The translations under genes and the position numbers were made by a program. The notes under the pieces were generated by a model, which did not search any database, was not told the origin of the DNA, and was given only the letters and a program-made list of their open reading frames with translations. A stretch of 64,000 bases of DNA from Synechococcus sp. JA-3-3Ab (lineage in GTDB: Bacteria; Cyanobacteriota; Cyanobacteriia; Thermostichales; Thermostichaceae), in assembly GCF_000013205.1 (NCBI RefSeq), contig NC_007775.1, positions 744,001-808,000 on the forward strand, in the 5' to 3' direction. Of the stretch, positions 5,181 to 62,377 are shown in pieces (position 1 is the first letter of the stretch; each line of letters opens with the position of its first letter).

Positions 5181-6440
5181 ATGATCCACGAACTCTCCAT
5201 GCCGGCCCTCAGCTCCACCATGGAAACGGGCAAGATCGTCGCCTGGCTGAAAAACCCCGGCGACCGGGTGGAGAAAGGGGAAAACATCCTGGTGGTGGAG
5301 TCGGACAAGGCGGACATGGACGTGGAGTCCTTCCACAGCGGCATTCTGGCCAGCATCCTCATCCCAGCAGGGGAATCGGCGCCGGTGGGCGCCCCCATCG
5401 CCCTCATTGCCGAAACCGAAGCGGAGGTGGCCGAGGCCCAAGAGCGAGCCAAGGCCCTCTCTAAGGGTGCTCTACCGGCAACTGCACCTACTGCAGTCCC
5501 CACCCCCACAGTTCAACAGCCAACCCCTGTCCCTGCGGCGATCCCCACCCCCACCCTTCCAACTGGCTCCAACGGGGCCGGATCCCAGCGGATCCTGGCT
5601 TCCCCACGGGCGAAAAAATTGGCAGAAAGCCTGGGGATCGACCTGCGCACGGTGCGCGGCTCCGGCCCTGGTGGGCGCATCGTGGCCGAAGATGTGGAGC
5701 GGGCTGCAGCTCAGGCCGCCTCTACGCAAGCGGCAGCTCCCCCCCCTGTCTCTGCGGCTGCCCCGTTGGGAGAAGTGGTTCCCTTGAGCACGTTGCAGGC
5801 GGCGGTGGTGCGCAACATGAACGCCAGCTTGGGCGTGCCGGTGTTCCACGTCGGCTACACCATCACCACCGACAGCCTGGATCAGCTTTACCAACAGGTG
5901 AAGCCCAAAGGGGTAACCCTGACGGCCCTTTTGGTGAAAGCGGTGGCCCTGACCCTAGAAAAGCATCCCCTCCTCAACGCCAGCTACACGGAAAACGGGA
6001 TCCACTACAAAGCCGAGATCAACATTGCCGTGGCGGTGGCCATGGAAGACGGCGGCCTGATCACCCCTGTGCTCAAGCAGGCCAACCGCGTTGACCTGTA
6101 CGAACTCTCACGGCGTTGGAAGGAGCTGGTGGAGCGGGCGCGGCGCAAGCAACTGCAGCCGGAGGAGTACAACAGCGGCACCTTTACCCTCTCCAACCTG
6201 GGCATGTTTGGGGTGGATCGCTTCGACGCCATCCTGCCTCCCAACCAAGGAGCTATTTTGGCCGTCGGCGCTGCTCGCCCCACCGTGGTGGCCACACCAG
6301 AAAAAGCCATCGCCATCCGCTCCCAGATGCAGGTCAACCTCACCTGCGACCACCGCGTCATTTACGGCGCCCACGCTGCGGCCTTCTTGCAAGATCTGGC
6401 CCAGTTGTTAGAACAAAAGGTGGGATCCCTGACGCTGTAG
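5181..6440 (+). CDS. pdhC: Pyruvate dehydrogenase E2, dihydrolipoamide acetyltransferase
   Basis: Core subunit of the pyruvate dehydrogenase complex; it moves the acetyl group from lipoamide to coenzyme A. The 419-residue protein begins with a lipoyl domain (VESDKADMDVES, lipoyl lysine at residue 43), then an Ala/Pro-rich linker (about 95-140), a peripheral-subunit-binding domain (SPRAKKLAESLGIDL, GSGPGGRIV) and the acyltransferase domain. The active-site motif reads DHRVIYG, where most E2 enzymes have HxxxDG; as I recall, tyrosine at this place is usual in cyanobacterial and plastid E2. The start follows 69 bases after ppsA. No E1 or E3 gene is nearby, so the complex is encoded in pieces. 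Confidence 0.92.
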   Translation: MIHELSMPALSSTMETGKIVAWLKNPGDRVEKGENILVVESDKADMDVESFHSGILASILIPAGESAPVGAPIALIAETEAEVAEAQERAKALSKGALPATAPTAVPTPTVQQPTPVPAAIPTPTLPTGSNGAGSQRILASPRAKKLAESLGIDLRTVRGSGPGGRIVAEDVERAAAQAASTQAAAPPPVSAAAPLGEVVPLSTLQAAVVRNMNASLGVPVFHVGYTITTDSLDQLYQQVKPKGVTLTALLVKAVALTLEKHPLLNASYTENGIHYKAEINIAVAVAMEDGGLITPVLKQANRVDLYELSRRWKELVERARRKQLQPEEYNSGTFTLSNLGMFGVDRFDAILPPNQGAILAVGAARPTVVATPEKAIAIRSQMQVNLTCDHRVIYGAHAAAFLQDLAQLLEQKVGSLTL

Positions 6441-6768
6441 AACTCAATAAGGGGCAGGCTGGGATCTACCTCAAGAGCCCAGGCGTGGATGCCGACGCTA
6501 ATGTTGTGGGTGCAGAGGACGAGAGCTGAGCAATCTCGGTCAAGCTCCGCCAGAATCCGCTCGCGCTACTCTCGGTACTAAAGCCAAGGGCACTGAGGTT
6601 GGCTAGCTCTGGCTCTACCGGTTCTCGCACATCGATGAGTTGCAGCGGGGCAGCCCCAGGATCTCTTAAGCGGGCAGCCAGCTGTTGCGCGCGACCGGGC
6701 GAATGAAAGAGAACATGGCTGACCTGTAACTTATCTGGATCCGTTCCTAGGATATACCGGCTCAGCAT
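6441..6768 (-). pseudogene. Rhodanese-like protein, decayed
   Basis: A reading frame from 6768 gives a rhodanese N-terminus (QLAARLRDP, APLQLIDVREP). Near 6562 the match jumps to another frame, which reads ERILAELDRDCSALVLCTHN and then GIHAWALEVDPSLP. The last part is the standard C-terminus of cyanobacterial rhodaneses. Between CTHN and the GIHAW block the usual stretch of about 25 residues after the active-site cysteine is missing, so there is both a frameshift and a deletion. It abuts the 3' end of the E2 gene tail to tail. The functional enzyme would move sulfane sulfur; this copy cannot. Confidence 0.7.
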
Positions 6769-41757: not shown

Positions 41758-41780
41758 CCCCTCTCCCTGAGGGAGAGGGG
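41758..41780. repeat. Dispersed hairpin repeat CCCCTCTCC...GGAGAGGGG, unit 1
   Basis: After CCCTCACCCCCGG comes a 9-bp stem CCCCTCTCC with GGAGAGGGG around CTGAG. The same block stands inverted at 57766-57788, and a cut piece at 62378-62398, always between genes. Here it separates the convergent phr and alkaline phosphatase genes and could work as a transcription terminator. Confidence 0.7.
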
Positions 41781-50300: not shown

Positions 50301-51232
50301 TCATGGCTTACGCCACGCTTCGCCAACAGTGACCCCTGCCCGATAGCAGGACATTTCCTGAGCTTGAAGAACGGGACGCCCCACCGCTCTGGATTTGATG
50401 ACTCTCGCCGAGCTGTGATCCCTGCCAATCCTCAACCCACAGTGCGGACAATCGTGCCACCGCTCATGCAGCTTTTTGGGCACATCTCGACCACACCCCG
50501 AGCACCCTTGACTGCTGCCGCGGGGATCCCCTGCAATCGTCAACAGCCCAGCTCTTTCAGCCTTGGCTGCCAAAATTTGCAGGAACTCACCCCACCCAGC
50601 ATCATCAACAGATTTGGCTAGTCTGCTTCTAGCCAGACCCCTAATAGTAAGCGCCTCATGAGCAATGTGCTTCCCCTTACTTAACAACTTCTTTGCCATC
50701 TTGTAGTGAAAATCTTTGCGCTGGTTGGCTACTTTGTAAAACCGTCGGGCAAAGGGCGGTGTTGGACCAGCTTGACCGGCCCAACCTTGGGCAGATGGAT
50801 AAACTGCCCTCGAATGCAGTCCTGCTTCATCTGAGGGAAGGTGAAGGAGCGATACCGCCCTACTCCCTTAAACCTAGGCCTGCCTGCCCTTTTGCCGTTG
50901 CGGTCACCTTTTAGCCATCGGTCAAAGGCCCTTTGTACCCGCTGTAGGCAGTCTTGGAGCACCTGGGAATGAATCGCTTGGTATTCGGGGAAGAGAGCCT
51001 TTGTGTTTACCAAGTCTCGTTTGTGGGAGTCGAAATCGGGCTTGTCTTTCAACTCAGGCAGATGACAGACCGTCAAGGAGCAGGCATGGATATTGCAGCG
51101 ATTCTGCTCCCACCCGTTGAACCGTTCTGCCAGGCGATAGTTGTACTGCCTACGCAGCAGCTCCAGCCACTCACCCATCAGGGCGACTTGGCTAGCAGTA
51201 GGGCGCAAGCGGTACTGGTAAGCGGTTCTCAT
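50301..51232 (-). pseudogene. tnpB: TnpB copy B, internal deletion with frameshift
   Basis: The N-terminal 165 residues (from the ATG at 51232) match copy A nearly perfectly up to PLPDGF. The frame then stops (TK, stop) because the sequence jumps to [20 protein letters not shown] in a different frame. About 130 to 140 residues containing the RuvC-I aspartate are missing. The C-terminal part, with the zinc ribbon and RuvC-III, continues to 50301, where the 24-base insert changes the end to VGEAWRKP. It cannot make an active nuclease. Confidence 0.9.
50303..50326. repeat. 24-base short interspersed insert in IS copy B
   Basis: Absent from copy A, where a single C stands in its place. It contains GGCTTACGCCACGCTTCGCC, which resembles the short dispersed repeats common in filamentous cyanobacteria (GCGTAAGCC-type). 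The insertion breaks the 3' end of the tnpB frame and lies next to the right-end hairpin. Confidence 0.65.
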
Positions 51233-56171: not shown

Positions 56172-57692
56172 ATGGTTCTCTCGGATCCCCTTCACCTTAT
56201 CGTCCAAGAGGTGCGGCAGGGCGAGTACGCAGACCGGGTAAAAAAGCTGGTTTACTTCACCTGCACCCACACTTGGACAAACGACGCTGTCAAGCTGAGC
56301 GGGGAGGAGCTAAAGGCTCTGCTGGAGCAGCTCTACCGCGAGCATGCGACCCTGGAGGACCTAGTCCGGCGTTTTCGCGACGCCATCAGCCAAATCAACA
56401 AGAAGGCTGAATACGCCCGCGTCGCCAAACTGCTGCTGAGCAAGCTCGAGCTCCTCTATCACCAGTCTCAATCGGATCCCGGCAGCCCTCTGACTGCTTC
56501 ATCTGGGGATCTGCCGGCTTGGGTGGCGCCTGCGCCCAGCTTACCTGTGAGATACGGCGGCCTACAACTGCACAAGCAAGACTACGACCCGTTCGAGTTG
56601 CGGGCGGGGGTGATGCAGCAGACAAGTCCCTTGCGGGCCAAGCTGGTTTTGTTCACGGCTTTGCACCACAGGCTAGAGCCCACGGTGCAAGGGTTGGCGG
56701 CCCTACGGCGCTACAGTCTCGACGAGCTGCTCAGAGCCCTTTACGACGCCTGCAACTCCCCGCAGGAGCTGGAAGCGCGGCTGCAACAGGCGGTGCAGCA
56801 GCTCCAGGAGCCGGAGCAGGATAGCCAAGCAGCTAACGCCGTGCTGCAGATGCTGCAGCCTCTCTACGTTTACGTGTCCCAAGAAACAATGGCCGGTGGG
56901 GGGCTAGCTGCCGAGACTCTCGCCGCCGATCTCGATTGGCTCAATGGGGAAAATGCCGTCGGCACTGGCGGGACGGAGTCCAGCCGCATCACTTGGCTGG
57001 AGTCCGAAAGCCCGAACGAGGGGGAAGCGACAGCCGAGCCCCCTGCTTTTTCTGCTCCTGCCGTTCTGGCGTCAGAGCTTCCAGAACCCTGCCGCCAACT
57101 GCTGCACCGTAGCGCCGGATCCCTGATGGCCACCATCGAGAACACCCTGAGCGAGTTGGGCAACGCCCTGGACGAAGGGCTGCAGGACGAGGATCCGGAC
57201 CAATACCTGAGCCTCAAACACCAGGTGCTGCGTGGCCTTCTGAAAGACGTAGAGGGATCCGCTGCCCTGTTCAGAGGGATCCTGAGTAGGCTGGAGCAGT
57301 CGGAGTGGGGTTTGCTGCGGCCCGCCGGCAATGCGGGACAGCCAGGAGAGATGGCCGAGATGCCGCTTCAGGTGGGGGATCCCTATGCCGCTCTGCGGCA
57401 GGTGCTGGCCACCAGCGAGCTGGCCCGCCAAAAGCCCCAGTTGGAGCAGGAAGTGATGCGCTTGGTGCGGCGCAGCATTGGCGCGATCAAAACCGCCATT
57501 GAAAATGCCCTGAGCGAGCTGGGCCAGGCCTTGGACGAACAGTTCCAGAGCCGTCCCCTAGAAGAAGCCTTAGTTCTCAAGTACCAGACGTTGCGCGCCT
57601 TTTTGCAGGAAGTCGAGGAGATCTCCACCAAGTTCGCCGCTTTCTTGGCCCGCATGGAGGAGGCAGAGCGCCGTCTATTTGGCCTGGTTTGA
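56172..57692 (+). CDS. Four-repeat helical protein, function unknown
   Basis: A 506-residue soluble protein that I do not recognise. It is built from two kinds of internal repeat. A: residues about 20-95 (VKKLVYFTCTHTWTNDAVKL, ELKALLEQLYREHATLEDLV) and about 155-240 (RAKLVLFTALHHRLEPTVQG, LDELLRALYDACNSPQELEA). B: about 310-380 (RSAGSLMATIENTLSELGNA, LKHQVLRGLLKDVEG) and about 425-500 (RSIGAIKTAIENALSELGQA, LKYQTLRAFLQEVEE). The A pair and B pair are joined by Pro/Ser/Ala-rich linkers. Everything is predicted helical, with no catalytic motif or signal. It follows rsgA after 134 bases in the same direction. Confidence 0.65.
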   Translation: MVLSDPLHLIVQEVRQGEYADRVKKLVYFTCTHTWTNDAVKLSGEELKALLEQLYREHATLEDLVRRFRDAISQINKKAEYARVAKLLLSKLELLYHQSQSDPGSPLTASSGDLPAWVAPAPSLPVRYGGLQLHKQDYDPFELRAGVMQQTSPLRAKLVLFTALHHRLEPTVQGLAALRRYSLDELLRALYDACNSPQELEARLQQAVQQLQEPEQDSQAANAVLQMLQPLYVYVSQETMAGGGLAAETLAADLDWLNGENAVGTGGTESSRITWLESESPNEGEATAEPPAFSAPAVLASELPEPCRQLLHRSAGSLMATIENTLSELGNALDEGLQDEDPDQYLSLKHQVLRGLLKDVEGSAALFRGILSRLEQSEWGLLRPAGNAGQPGEMAEMPLQVGDPYAALRQVLATSELARQKPQLEQEVMRLVRRSIGAIKTAIENALSELGQALDEQFQSRPLEEALVLKYQTLRAFLQEVEEISTKFAAFLARMEEAERRLFGLV

Positions 57693-58084
57693 AAACCAAG
57701 CCCGCCATTCTGGGATCCCGTCAACTCGCCTGAAGTCAGAGAGAGCTGTAGCTGTAGGAGCAGCCCCCCTCTCCCAGTGGGAGAGGGGTGGGGGGTGAGG
57801 GATGCCGCTTCGCCGCTGCCAACATCCAAGACAGCGCCGGGCGCGAAAGCCCTGACCCTCCTCACCCTTGAGGGCAGAGATTCTTCGGAGTCCCGAAACG
57901 AACCTTCAAAGGCGCTGTCCAACCGCTCTGCTGTTACCCTGGCGGCCACCCTACTTTTTTGGTCGCGCCGGCGAGGCCAAGTCCTTTGCCTTCCCTAGAG
58001 CCGATAATGCTGGCGCTCCAGTGCAGTGTCTCGCTTTAGAATGGCCATGAGCGCGGGATCAGCTCTCTTCCATGGATTCTATGG
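57693..58084. other. Intergenic region with a hairpin repeat
   Basis: A 392-base gap. Apart from the hairpin repeat at 57766-57788 I see no gene, tRNA or convincing promoter. Reading frames inside it have no coding character. Confidence 0.5.
57766..57788. repeat. Dispersed hairpin repeat, unit 2 (inverted relative to unit 1)
   Basis: CCCCTCTCCC, AGT, GGGAGAGGGG forms a perfect 10-bp stem, followed by TGGGGGGTGAGGG, the complement of the CCCTCACCCCC that precedes unit 1 at 41758. It lies 74 bases after the four-repeat protein gene and may end its transcript. Confidence 0.7.
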
Positions 58085-59077
58085 ATGCCAATGGATGCCA
58101 AAGATCTGCTCCGACTGTACCGGGCAGGACGGGTTAACTTTGCAGGCGAGAACCTGGCCGCTCTGGATCTGAGCCGAGCGGATTTGATCGGGATAGACCT
58201 TTCTCAGGCCGACCTGCATGGTATCAACTTGATCTTTGCCTACCTGGGGCGGGCCAAGCTGCAGAAGGCCAACTTGGTGGGAGCGAATCTCAGTGGGGCC
58301 AACCTCAGCCAGGCTGACCTGAGCGAGGCAGATCTCAGAGATGCGCATTTGCACGGCACCACGTTGCAAGGGGCGGACTTGCACGGGGCTAACTTGGCGC
58401 TGGCTCTGTTGATCGACGCCAACTTGCTAGAGGCGGATCTGCGCTGGGCCAACCTCACCAGCGCCAACCTGGGGGGGGCTTGCCTGCGGGGGGCCAATCT
58501 CCGTTTCGAGAGTCGCCGGGCAGCCGTGCTGCGCAGCGCCAATCTCAGCCGCGCCGACCTGAGCGGGGCCAACCTGGCGGGAGCGGATTTGACGCGGGCC
58601 GACCTAAGGGGGGCCAATCTCAAAGAGGCCAGTTTAATCGGAGCCCACTTACAGGGAGCCAACCTACAGCGGGCCTGTTTGCGCGGGGCCCTCCTCAGCA
58701 ACGCCGACCTGAGGGGAGCTTCCTTTCTGGGCGGGGACCTACAGGGGGTGCAGATGGGGCGGGCCAACTTGAAGGAAGCCATGCTCAGCCAGGTCAACTT
58801 GGCGGAAGCCAACCTCAGCGAGGCAGATCTGGCGGGAGCCGATCTTTCCGCCGCCTGCCTGCGCTCGGCCAAGCTGGCGCGGACGGATCTGAGTCGGGCT
58901 AACCTGGCCGGGGCCGACCTGAGATCGGCCAGCCTGGTGGATGCCTATCTGGGCCGCACCAACCTGGAAAATGCCGATCTCCGCGAGGCCATCCTCACCC
59001 GCGCCGACCTCAGCACCGCCAACCTCGCGGGAGCCAACCTGCGCGGGGCGACTCTGCCAGATGGACGGATTGGGTGA
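58085..59077 (+). CDS. Pentapeptide-repeat protein
   Basis: A 330-residue protein of which residues about 20-325 are pentapeptide repeats of the A(D/N)LXX kind (for example ANLSGANLSQADLSEADLRD, AHLHGTTLQGADLHGANLAL), which fold into a right-handed square beta helix. No signal peptide, membrane helix or additional domain is seen, so it should be cytoplasmic. Such proteins are numerous in cyanobacteria; a few mimic DNA and inhibit gyrase, most have no known role. An ATG at 58091 (MDAKDLLRLYRAG) is an equally possible start. The histidine kinase-like gene starts 28 bases after its end. Confidence 0.88.
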   Translation: MPMDAKDLLRLYRAGRVNFAGENLAALDLSRADLIGIDLSQADLHGINLIFAYLGRAKLQKANLVGANLSGANLSQADLSEADLRDAHLHGTTLQGADLHGANLALALLIDANLLEADLRWANLTSANLGGACLRGANLRFESRRAAVLRSANLSRADLSGANLAGADLTRADLRGANLKEASLIGAHLQGANLQRACLRGALLSNADLRGASFLGGDLQGVQMGRANLKEAMLSQVNLAEANLSEADLAGADLSAACLRSAKLARTDLSRANLAGADLRSASLVDAYLGRTNLENADLREAILTRADLSTANLAGANLRGATLPDGRIG

Positions 59078-59104: not shown

Positions 59105-60700
59105 GTGAGGTTTTCCGCTGTCCTAGAAGCTCCACAACCGCTAGCCTACAGGGGAAGGGTGGGATCAAAGGGATCCGTGAACAGCCGCCGATTTCTGTCC
59201 TTGATGGAAGCCTTGTGGGCCGCTCTACCCTTGCCAGAATGGTTGCCGGGGGCGGGAGAGCGCTCTTGGCAGCAGACGGTGGCAGCCCTGCTCCAGCTAT
59301 GGCAAGAGGTTGGACAGTTTGGCGTGGTGATCGGGGGGCCGGTCTCCTGGTGGCCCCCTTGGGTGGTGCAGGATCCCTTACCCCAACTGCCGCTGCCCAT
59401 GGATGCGCTGCATCTTCCCCGCCACTCTTGGGAGCCGGCACGGGAACCCCCCTGGTTGTTCAGCCCGGATTTTTCCCCTGAGTCAATCCTCACCCCTGGG
59501 CAGACGGTGATCCCTCTCCTGCCGCGGGATCCACTGGTGGAGGAGCCTTTTCTGTTGCTGCTCACCCCTGTTTTTTCGGCAGTAGCTGCCCAGGGTCACC
59601 ATCCCCACACCCGGCAGAGGGGGATGATGGTCTCTTTTGAGCCGGAGGTGATCCGACGAGCCTGGCAGAGCCTGGAGCAACGGGTTCAACAGGGCAGGCC
59701 AGACCGGCTGGCCGCTTGGCAGGAGTTGGCCCGCCACTATCCCCTGATGCAGCCGCATGTACGGGTGTTGGCCCGCTTCAGCAGCTTCCTTCTGCTGGGT
59801 AACCTGGCCGAGTTTGGATCCCCGCCCGCCCGCCTGCCCCCTGCCAGGGCAGAACAGGAGGCTGCCGCTGTGCCTCCACCGCCACCAGCAGCAAGGCAGA
59901 TCCCGGCTTCTTCATCTTCCGCTTCCTCGCCGGCGCCTGAGCCTCCCGCCCACGGCCGCTCCTCCGCTCCCCAAGCCGAGCCAGAGCAAGCGGGCAGCCT
60001 CTCGGAGGCGGAGTTGTTGCGGGCTCTCATCCACGAGATCCAGACGCCCCTCAGCACCATCCGCACCTTGGTCAGCCTCATCCTGAAGCGGCGCGACCTG
60101 CCACCGCGGGTGCGGGAATACGTGGAGAAGATCGACCGCGAGTGCACCGAGCAAATCAACCGTTTCGGTCTGTTTTTCCAGGCCACAGAAACGGTCATGC
60201 CCGCTGCCACGCCAGGCGAGGGACGTCGGTTGCAACTGGAGCCGATTGCGCTGGTGGACTTGGTGCGGCAAAACCTGCCCCGCTGGCAGGAACAGGTGGA
60301 ACGGCGGGGATCCCGCTTGGAGTTGGAGATCCCTGCCGAGCTGCCCGATGTGGTCAGCGATCCCAAAGCCCTGGAGGCGGTGCTATTTGGAATTATCGAC
60401 CGCCTAGCCCGTAGTACTCCCGCTGGCAGCGGCATCCGCGCCCAATTGCTCAGCGCTGGCGAGCTGGTGAAGCTGCAGTTCCAGGTAAACACCCCCGAGG
60501 GGAGCGACACCCCTAGCCTGGAACTTAAGTCCCCTCAGCCAATTGGCCAGTTGTTGGTGGTGCAGCCAGATACCGGGGCCATTAGCCTCAGCCTGCCAGT
60601 AGCCCGAACCCTGTTCCGAGCTTTGGGGGGCTATCTCACTGTGCGCCATCGGGCTCGGCAAGGGGAAATTCTCAATATCTACTTACCCCGCCAGCTCTAG
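59105..60700 (+). CDS. Histidine kinase-like protein with degenerate ATPase domain
   Basis: A 531-residue protein starting with a GTG at 59105 behind GGAGAAG. Residues about 1-240 form a sensor-like region without a recognised family, followed by an Ala/Pro/Ser-rich linker. The HisKA dimerisation domain follows, with ELLRALIHEIQTPLSTIRTL (phospho-acceptor His310) and a well-formed second helix. The C-terminal part has the fold pattern of HATPase_c (DPKALEAVLFGIIDRLARST) but no DxGxG or GxGLGL boxes, so ATP binding is doubtful. It may be a phosphatase, a receiver of phosphate from another kinase, or a structural partner. A normal kinase and a response regulator follow in line. Confidence 0.7.
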   Translation: MRFSAVLEAPQPLAYRGRVGSKGSVNSRRFLSLMEALWAALPLPEWLPGAGERSWQQTVAALLQLWQEVGQFGVVIGGPVSWWPPWVVQDPLPQLPLPMDALHLPRHSWEPAREPPWLFSPDFSPESILTPGQTVIPLLPRDPLVEEPFLLLLTPVFSAVAAQGHHPHTRQRGMMVSFEPEVIRRAWQSLEQRVQQGRPDRLAAWQELARHYPLMQPHVRVLARFSSFLLLGNLAEFGSPPARLPPARAEQEAAAVPPPPPAARQIPASSSSASSPAPEPPAHGRSSAPQAEPEQAGSLSEAELLRALIHEIQTPLSTIRTLVSLILKRRDLPPRVREYVEKIDRECTEQINRFGLFFQATETVMPAATPGEGRRLQLEPIALVDLVRQNLPRWQEQVERRGSRLELEIPAELPDVVSDPKALEAVLFGIIDRLARSTPAGSGIRAQLLSAGELVKLQFQVNTPEGSDTPSLELKSPQPIGQLLVVQPDTGAISLSLPVARTLFRALGGYLTVRHRARQGEILNIYLPRQL

Positions 60701-60795
60701 TCCGCCGGCCTGGAGCCGGTCTGAAGTGGCAAATCCCAGGGAGGATGGGGCTAGGATCGATTTGCTTGCTCCAGGAGAGTTGAAAGAGGGGATCC

Positions 60796-61575
60796 ATGCC
60801 GAGAGCGAAAAAAGTTGCCGAACCTCACCCAGAGCCTGAGCCCGTCTGTGGGGGCGGGGATCCCAGGCCTGGCGGGGGGATCACTCTATCTGCCCAGCAG
60901 CTCTCCACCTTGCTCCACGAGATGCGCAATCCTCTAACCGCCCTGAGCACGCTGGCCAAGTTGTTGCAAAAGCGTCTGCCCCCCGACGATCGCAACCACT
61001 GGATTGGCCTGAGCATTGAACAGGAGTGCAAGCATCTGCAGGATCTGCTGGCGGAGCTGGAGCGCTTGGACGGGATCCCGGCTCCTCTCCAACTTCGGCC
61101 CCTCTCCTTGGCCGACCTGCTGCGGGAGTGGAGCCCTATTTATCAGGCCCTGGCGGAAGCGCAGGGACATCGCTTTCAGGCCGTTCTTCCCCCTTTCCTG
61201 CCGCCGGTACTGGCAGATCCCCGCGCCCTGCGCCAGGTGTTGGATAACTTAATCGACAACGCCTGCAAGTACACCCCGCCCCCCGGCGATATCCAGCTCA
61301 GGGTAGAGGTCAAGCCCGCCGAGGAAGCGAGAGGCTCAAGCGCCTCCTCTTGCCAGGAGGTGTGGATCGCCGTCTGCGACAACGGCCCCGGCATCCATCC
61401 TGAGAACCTGGAGCGGATCTTCGATCCGTTTTTTCGCGCCGATCCCTCCAAGCCGGGGCAGGGGCTGGGGTTGGCCATCAGCCGCGACTTGGCCGCCCAA
61501 ATGGGAGGAGATCTCGAGGTGGAAAGCTCCCCCCAGGGCTCCTGCTTCCGCCTCAGATTGCTCACGGCCCAGTAG
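60796..61575 (+). CDS. Compact sensor-less histidine kinase
   Basis: A 259-residue kinase made only of HisKA and HATPase_c domains. The H box is STLLHEMRNPLTALSTLAKL with His41; the N box is QVLDNLIDNACKYTPPPG; the G boxes are VCDNGPGIHPENLERIFDPF and GQGLGLAISRDLAAQMGGDL. All catalytic elements are intact. There is no transmembrane segment or input domain, so it should be soluble and may receive its signal from a partner such as the degenerate kinase 95 bases upstream. The response regulator gene follows 64 bases downstream. Confidence 0.88.
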   Translation: MPRAKKVAEPHPEPEPVCGGGDPRPGGGITLSAQQLSTLLHEMRNPLTALSTLAKLLQKRLPPDDRNHWIGLSIEQECKHLQDLLAELERLDGIPAPLQLRPLSLADLLREWSPIYQALAEAQGHRFQAVLPPFLPPVLADPRALRQVLDNLIDNACKYTPPPGDIQLRVEVKPAEEARGSSASSCQEVWIAVCDNGPGIHPENLERIFDPFFRADPSKPGQGLGLAISRDLAAQMGGDLEVESSPQGSCFRLRLLTAQ

Positions 61576-61639
61576 GGCTTAAATGGAGCAGGTATGTCTC
61601 TTCCAGCCAAAATCTTGAAAGCTATCCAGGAGCTGCACA

Positions 61640-62377
61640 ATGGCCCCCTTCGCTCAAGCCAAATCCGAACCTGCCTCGGCACGGGCCCGCATCTTGTTGG
61701 TGGATGACGAGCCAGGCTTGCGGGAAGCAGTGCAAGCCTATCTAGAAGACAGCGGCTTTGAGGTGATCCCGGCTGCCAATGCCCAGCAAGCCCTGCAACT
61801 GCTCAGCACGACGCAGCCACAGTTGATTATTTCCGACATCATGATGCCGGGCATGGACGGCTACCAATTTTTGGCGCAAGTGCGAAAACTCGATCCCTAC
61901 AGCCACCTGCCCGTGGTCTTCCTCACCGCCAAGGGGATGACCGCCGACCGCATCCAGGGCTACCGGGCCGGCGTCGATGCCTACTTGCCCAAGCCATTCG
62001 ACCCGGAGGAGCTGGTGGCCATTGTCTCCAATCTCATCGAGCGCTCCCGCGCGGCCAGCCCCTCGGAGGTAGTGGCCCGCGAGCTGGCCTCGATTCGCGC
62101 CCTGCTATCGGAGCGAACTCTCCCCCCGACCATTCCCTCTCAGCCCCCCACCCCAACTCCTTTACCCCCACCGATTAAGGTGGAGCTGACACCACGGGAA
62201 CAGCAGGTGTTGGAGAAGGTAGCAGAGGGTCTGATGAACAAAGAAATTGCCAAACAACTGCAAACCAGCGTGCGCAACGTGGAAAAATACGTCACCCGCC
62301 TCCTCAACAAGACGGGCACCAGCAGCCGCACCGAGCTGGTGCGCTACGCCCTCACCTACGGTCTGATCCGGTTGTAG
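61640..62377 (+). CDS. Ycf29/Rre1-like response regulator (NarL/LuxR family)
   Basis: A 245-residue response regulator. Receiver domain: ILLVDDEPGLREAVQAYLED, phosphorylation site Asp66 in IISDIMMPGMDGYQF, conserved lysine in AYLPKPFDPEEL. A Pro-rich linker (about residues 155-180) leads to a LuxR-type HTH (TPREQQVLEKVAEGLMNKEI, VRNVEKYVTRLLNKTG). The length and the KAIA-type HTH resemble Ycf29, called Rre1 in Synechocystis, an orphan regulator of stress genes there. Here it is directly preceded by two kinase-like genes, suggesting a cognate pair. Confidence 0.82.
   Translation: MAPFAQAKSEPASARARILLVDDEPGLREAVQAYLEDSGFEVIPAANAQQALQLLSTTQPQLIISDIMMPGMDGYQFLAQVRKLDPYSHLPVVFLTAKGMTADRIQGYRAGVDAYLPKPFDPEELVAIVSNLIERSRAASPSEVVARELASIRALLSERTLPPTIPSQPPTPTPLPPPIKVELTPREQQVLEKVAEGLMNKEIAKQLQTSVRNVEKYVTRLLNKTGTSSRTELVRYALTYGLIRL

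Follow-up and report, generated by a model that had tools for sequence, protein, structure and literature searches.

The A-A'-B-B' protein described here is encoded in a window of 64 000 nucleotides (the whole stretch of DNA that was analysed) from Synechococcus sp. JA-3-3Ab and is paired, in genome after genome of its class, with a pentapeptide-repeat protein. We propose, with a probability of roughly one half, that it serves as an adaptor or scaffold, paired in its action with this partner, and that the two together probably gate signalling by second messengers or phosphorylation. The observations that speak for this reading are the domain anatomy of the protein, the class-wide co-inheritance and linkage of the two genes, the fusion of the same core to signalling domains in relatives and the retention of class III cyclase residues in most of the fused cyclase-type domains. 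The genomic pairing is strongly supported by the sequence comparisons; neither linkage nor co-occurrence is proof that the two proteins touch, and their physical binding, the assignment of domains to partners, the signalling process and the role of B are the parts of the proposal that we infer.

Domain organization of the A-A'-B-B' protein

The preliminary description of this DNA spoke of an unknown protein with two different helical repeats of about 75 residues, each duplicated, and flexible linkers between them. The overall design is borne out by local alignment, each pair being set against 1000 shuffles, in which A against A' scored 69 (shuffle mean 28.0, z 8.4) and B against B' scored 152 (shuffle mean 25.9, z 26.8), neither score being reached by any shuffle, whereas all four cross pairs between the two kinds stayed at chance (z < 0.6) and a search for a relation between the A and B profiles found none. 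The repeats are longer than had been stated, at 80–89 residues by profile limits. The coordinates are collected in Table 1.

Table 1. Features of the A-A'-B-B' gene and its partner gene (positions in the window)
Feature	Position	Strand	Basis and remarks
A-A'-B-B' protein gene	56172..57692	+	ORF, 506 aa
Domain A, residues 13-96	56208..56459	+	helical bundle, A-type; profile limits, predicted models
Linker A-A', residues 97-143	56460..56600	+	mostly low model confidence
Domain A', residues 144-232	56601..56867	+	helical bundle related to A, 'LR...TNPLRAK' type; profile, model
Acidic linker A'-B, residues 233-302	56868..57077	+	net charge -11; low model confidence
Domain B, residues 303-382	57078..57317	+	long helical hairpin, predicted; profile, model
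Domain B', residues 424-503	57441..57680	+	second helical hairpin; profile, model
Pentapeptide-repeat partner gene	58085..59077	+	330 aa; Pfam PF00805, 1.4e-78, 8 stretches

In the full-length AlphaFold2 model (28-row alignment), the block means are 90–98 for A (residues 11–100), mostly above 90 for A', about 43–70 for B, 73–81 for B' and below 50 for the linkers. A and A' are thus confidently predicted to be small helical bundles, and B and B', where model confidence is moderate, are less surely predicted to be helical hairpins. Confidence falls below 50 at residues 104–130, 240–251, 259–301 and 373–408, which fits the flexible linkers of the preliminary description. Domain A modelled alone from a 50-row alignment gave a mean confidence of 86.6; it carries the signature R-K-K-L ... 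W-E ... E-Y ... Y, and Lys25, Trp35 and Tyr81 are invariant over 50 aligned A domains. The gene is single copy in its own genome, being the sole match there of the A' and B profiles.

The protein remains without a family name, as first described: neither Pfam (best DAHL, 17.9 bits, cut-off 38) nor NCBIfam (best xseB, 12.2, cut-off 35) gave a family above its cut-off, PHROGs gave no match and PADLOC gave none for the protein or its pentapeptide partner. The outcome that the preliminary description had named as refuting it, a profile match to a known family, thus did not arise. Searching the sequences of solved structures with profiles of A, A' and B brought up no convincing relative; the best match, of A' to a chimera of HP0242 at E 0.006, covers part of the domain and was not taken as homology. 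Structural comparison of the models was similarly weak, with a best Foldseek E of 0.51 for the whole model and 2.4 for A alone; in VIA-align the B helices took up the list for the full-length model (top Z 7.9, rmsd 6.2 over 130 residues), and A alone reached a top Z of 4.3 (rmsd 4.0 over 79). Results of this kind are no evidence for a new fold. A plasmid search with one relative (L042) as query gave no match, and a promoter and terminator scan found nothing.

Distribution and history of the domains

A profile built from 19 relatives (A2) matched A/A' in 275 of the 388 genomes that represent the class, and in 115 of 160 genera, and the domain merits a family entry, since neither Pfam nor NCBIfam names it. 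The A' profile matches 34 of 117 genomes sampled across the phylum, all 34 of which belong to the class. Domain B is much rarer (19 of 194 genomes), lies within proteins of the A-A' family wherever it was examined and is doubled only in the eight genomes of the family of the window genome. A profile made from the two B copies of the window alone nevertheless reaches the single B of other lineages, at 5e-13 in L096, 4e-12 to 4e-9 in L074–L076, 4e-6 in L094 and 2e-4 in L041.

A and A' are homologous (hhalign probability 98.6%, E 7e-16) yet stay two types across the class, from which the pair is judged to be ancient, with no recent tandem duplication; B-B' is the sole lineage-specific duplication of the two pairs. 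The earlier statement that each repeat is duplicated therefore holds for B and B' and has to be replaced, for A and A', by two ancient related types. A further common stretch of about 90 residues (around VKIHGRQ...TWTQEF) was seen by eye after B at the C-terminus of L074, L094 and L096; it has no Pfam match in L074 or L096.

The pentapeptide-repeat partner

The partner contains at least eight contiguous pentapeptides, and its five-residue register is unbroken from about residue 9 to residue 329. Its orthologs are 45–90% identical and begin at residue 3 of the 330-residue ORF, and their length is constant: in 54 aligned sequences, over residues 6–324, no column is gapped in more than two. Conservation along the faces of the solenoid gave two of 12 face-by-section tests below p = 0.05 (0.0024 and 0.011), of which only the former survives correction for 12 tests, so that a face-wise signal in the sequences is suggestive only. 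At one locus (L138:896-2548, - strand) the pentapeptide ORF runs in frame into an extra C-terminal stretch, which could be genuine or an artefact of assembly; we take this stretch to resemble a glyoxalase/VOC domain.

Linkage and co-inheritance of the two genes

With E values up to 1e-60 accepted, a pentapeptide ortholog is present in 253 of the 388 genomes of the class, all 253 of which also have A/A', and at the same threshold none was found in the 113 genomes free of A/A' (Fisher p 5e-76 for co-occurrence over the 388 genomes, shared ancestry being ignored). The 22 genomes with A/A' alone comprise six of one genus (g39), nine others that are less than 90% complete and seven others.

Linkage was read from 69 A/A' ORFs in loci L031–L098, of which two duplicates (L054 and L060) and four at contig ends were set aside, leaving 63. 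The pair is adjacent in 54 of these: in 53 the pentapeptide gene lies downstream and on the same strand, at a gap of -13 to 191 bp, and in one (L085) it is upstream. The ends of the two genes overlap at several loci, which suggests that they may be translationally coupled. When the neighbouring ORFs were clustered, pentapeptide orthologs were found at 53 loci and any other family at no more than six.

Among the nine unpaired loci, L031 and L035 are from the genus of the window genome (G001 and G005) and have the pentapeptide gene elsewhere in the genome, L083, L084 and L089 are copies fused to a kinase, L069 is a split-ORF fragment and L092 is a variant without A'; the other two are L087 and L088. 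In the genome of L089, a second gene, of A-A-A' type, adjoins a pentapeptide paralog (L129). Four further genomes were read, and the pair is adjacent in three of them (L138–L140) and not within the stretch read in the fourth (L142, from the same genome as L088). In genome G149, one A-A-A' gene has two pentapeptide paralogs near it (L129:1713-2714 and 5539-6519, + strand), which share 49% and 42% identity with the protein of the window.

Gene neighbourhood in the window

The preliminary description had stressed that the gene follows a row of dnaK, dnaJ, tusA and rsgA in the same direction. This row is indeed present, with DnaK, DnaJ, TusA and RsgA confirmed upstream on the same strand and the gene lying 134 bp behind rsgA, but it is not conserved: none of the four genes was found around it in the five family relatives with readable upstream sequence (L031–L034 and L037), nor at any other of the 48 loci searched. 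A role as a chaperone or ribosome-assembly cofactor acting with DnaK, DnaJ and RsgA, which the position behind rsgA in this genome would favour, was rejected because the row is unconserved, and we regard it as highly improbable, the last in order of the four rival explanations considered. The neighbour that is conserved in other cyanobacteria is the downstream pentapeptide gene, which had gone unmentioned.

The gap between the two genes is 392 bp in the window, compared with 132–141 bp in three sister genomes, and contains a perfect GC-rich inverted repeat (57766-57788) with a near-identical copy at 41758-41780. On the 3' side of the pentapeptide gene (59105-62377, + strand) follow a HisKA-only protein, a full histidine kinase and a LuxR-type response regulator, and three members of the genus (L032–L034) retain this order of pentapeptide, kinase, kinase and regulator genes. 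Two neighbouring ORFs at 50301-51232 (- strand) resemble pieces of a broken IS605-type OrfB/TnpB transposase.

Architectures and signalling fusions in relatives

The architectures were compared in 70 proteins, four loci being left out as duplicates: L054 and L060 duplicate L040 and L050, and L067 and L071 appear to come from the same genomes as G053 and G034. As a rule, proteins of the class have a cyclase, a kinase or nothing at the N-terminus, followed by one to three A domains, a single A' in last place and a variable tail. In 65 of the 70, at least one A precedes a single A', and the remainder are fragments or variants.

An N-terminal class III cyclase-type domain is present in 12 of the 70 proteins and a Ser/Thr kinase in three, while 55 have neither. 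Among ten relatives scanned, Pfam confirms four cyclase and two kinase proteins; the PADLOC matches in relatives are to these kinase and cyclase domains and merely restate the enzyme types. The motif positions of the cyclase are kept in 11 of the 12 fused domains, the exception being the degenerate L082, in which one metal Asp and the Lys are lost; the positions checked are what we take to be the two metal Asp residues, the Lys/Asp pair for adenine and the transition-state Asn and Arg. Of the three copies fused to a kinase, two belong to a single genus, and no pentapeptide gene lies next to any of them.

A single A domain is fused to ComFB (PF10719, 2.3e-19) in genome G069 (L134:4463-5521, - strand), about 15 kb from the A-A' gene of that genome. 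In L088 the ComFB score is below threshold (16.7 bits, cut-off 25). In 14 of the 70 proteins (L040, L042, L044, L046, L047, L051, L064, L068, L070, L083, L084, L090, L097 and L135), a short and often acidic stretch leads into TCQ (THQ in one case) and then a hydrophobic residue, at a distance of 0 to 86 residues from the C-terminus.

The A-type bundles might be ligand sensors that control the attached or partner domains upon binding a small molecule such as a cyclic nucleotide; a small conserved bundle with three invariant residues would suit such a role, as would the fusions to cyclases and to ComFB, which is reported as a c-di-AMP receptor (PMC12313861). With Pfam and NCBIfam giving no similarity above cut-off to a known ligand-binding family, and with no convincing solved relative, we consider this second of the rivals to be distinctly unlikely. 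The first of them, which is unlikely but ranks above the others, is a structural scaffold without signalling, in which the A-A' protein and the fixed-length solenoid would form a stiff element, as in the cell envelope, the thylakoid or compartment organization, and the enzyme fusions would be incidental. The 55 proteins without either enzyme and the constant length of the pentapeptide protein are consistent with it, and B and B' resemble structural helices in the model, but fusions to three unrelated kinds of signalling domain and the retained cyclase motifs argue against incidental joining.

Proposed mechanism

The adaptor reading, which we prefer, would work as follows. The A-type bundles are most likely protein–protein docking modules. 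A', as the constant domain, would be the strongest candidate to hold the solenoid of the partner, although the distance matrices do not single it out as the binder, since A' correlates with the pentapeptide protein at 0.58, no better than A does (0.66). The A copies, one to three in number, may recruit other partners or set the valency. The enzyme carried in cis on the same core in some other cyanobacteria, adenylyl-cyclase-like or a Ser/Thr kinase, would be the output part, and it is because of this enzyme that signalling by second messengers or phosphorylation is probably what the complex gates. In the lineage of the window, which lacks the enzyme, B and B' follow the core in the place where other lineages have an enzyme or tail, and would most likely serve self-association or the recruitment of an enzyme in trans. 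The absence of both enzymes from most of the 70 proteins, and the separation of the pair in some genomes, count against a signalling adaptor, as do the kinase fusions that stand apart from any pentapeptide gene and the moderate model confidence of B and B'.

More tentatively, the pair might be a hitherto undescribed core signalling complex of cyanobacteria, in which A' docks on the solenoid, A sets the valency and the outputs (cyclase, kinase, acidic TCQ tail or B/B') are swapped. A literature search, whose coverage mostly excluded subscription journals, found no title or abstract describing the A-A'/pentapeptide pair. If the proposal is true, cyanobacteria would possess a family of signalling adaptors whose constant partner is unusual. 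The biochemical functions of the many pentapeptide-repeat proteins of cyanobacteria are almost completely unknown, according to a review (PMC8145042), and a near-obligate co-inherited partner that carries an enzyme in other lineages makes the function of one of them directly testable.

Comparison with known systems

The partner is an unmistakable member of the PF00805 pentapeptide-repeat proteins; it differs from PF00805 at large in forming an ortholog group of its own, with a fixed length and a tie to the A-A' gene, and its solved relatives, 3du1 (All3740) among them, span it only in part. The N-terminal domain of some relatives is, by its conserved motif positions, akin to the class III adenylyl cyclases (PF00211), whereas the window protein has no cyclase domain and A-A' is no known cyclase regulator domain. 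ComFB (PF10719) is a signalling protein that is joined to one A domain, and A itself is not ComFB.

The closest parallel in principle is with the effector-associated domains (EADs), or bacterial Death-like domains, which in PMC7159879 and PMC8195603 are likewise small, all-helical and tied to cyclase, kinase and other signalling domains in several architectures; A/A' shows the same coupling to varied signalling domains in its cyclase, kinase and ComFB fusions. A conflict or cell-death adaptor of this type is the third rival, and some chains of the six-helix Death fold do occur among the weak structural matches, although Fas–FADD (Z 3.5, rmsd 4.1, 70 aligned) is tied there with unrelated rows. 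The A-type did not match EAD1 (PF19955; hhalign probability 0.5%, E 0.13, 14 columns, with an EAD1 alignment of two sequences), the Pfam scans, which cover the other EAD types as far as Pfam holds them, gave no EAD match and PADLOC was equally silent on the window protein and its partner. Unlike the EADs, A/A' is near class-wide, has one constant pentapeptide partner and places A' normally once and last. We therefore consider membership of the conflict type improbable; as similarity to EAD1 was tested and not found, the A-A' protein may, by analogy, share the working principle of an EAD and yet not belong to that group.
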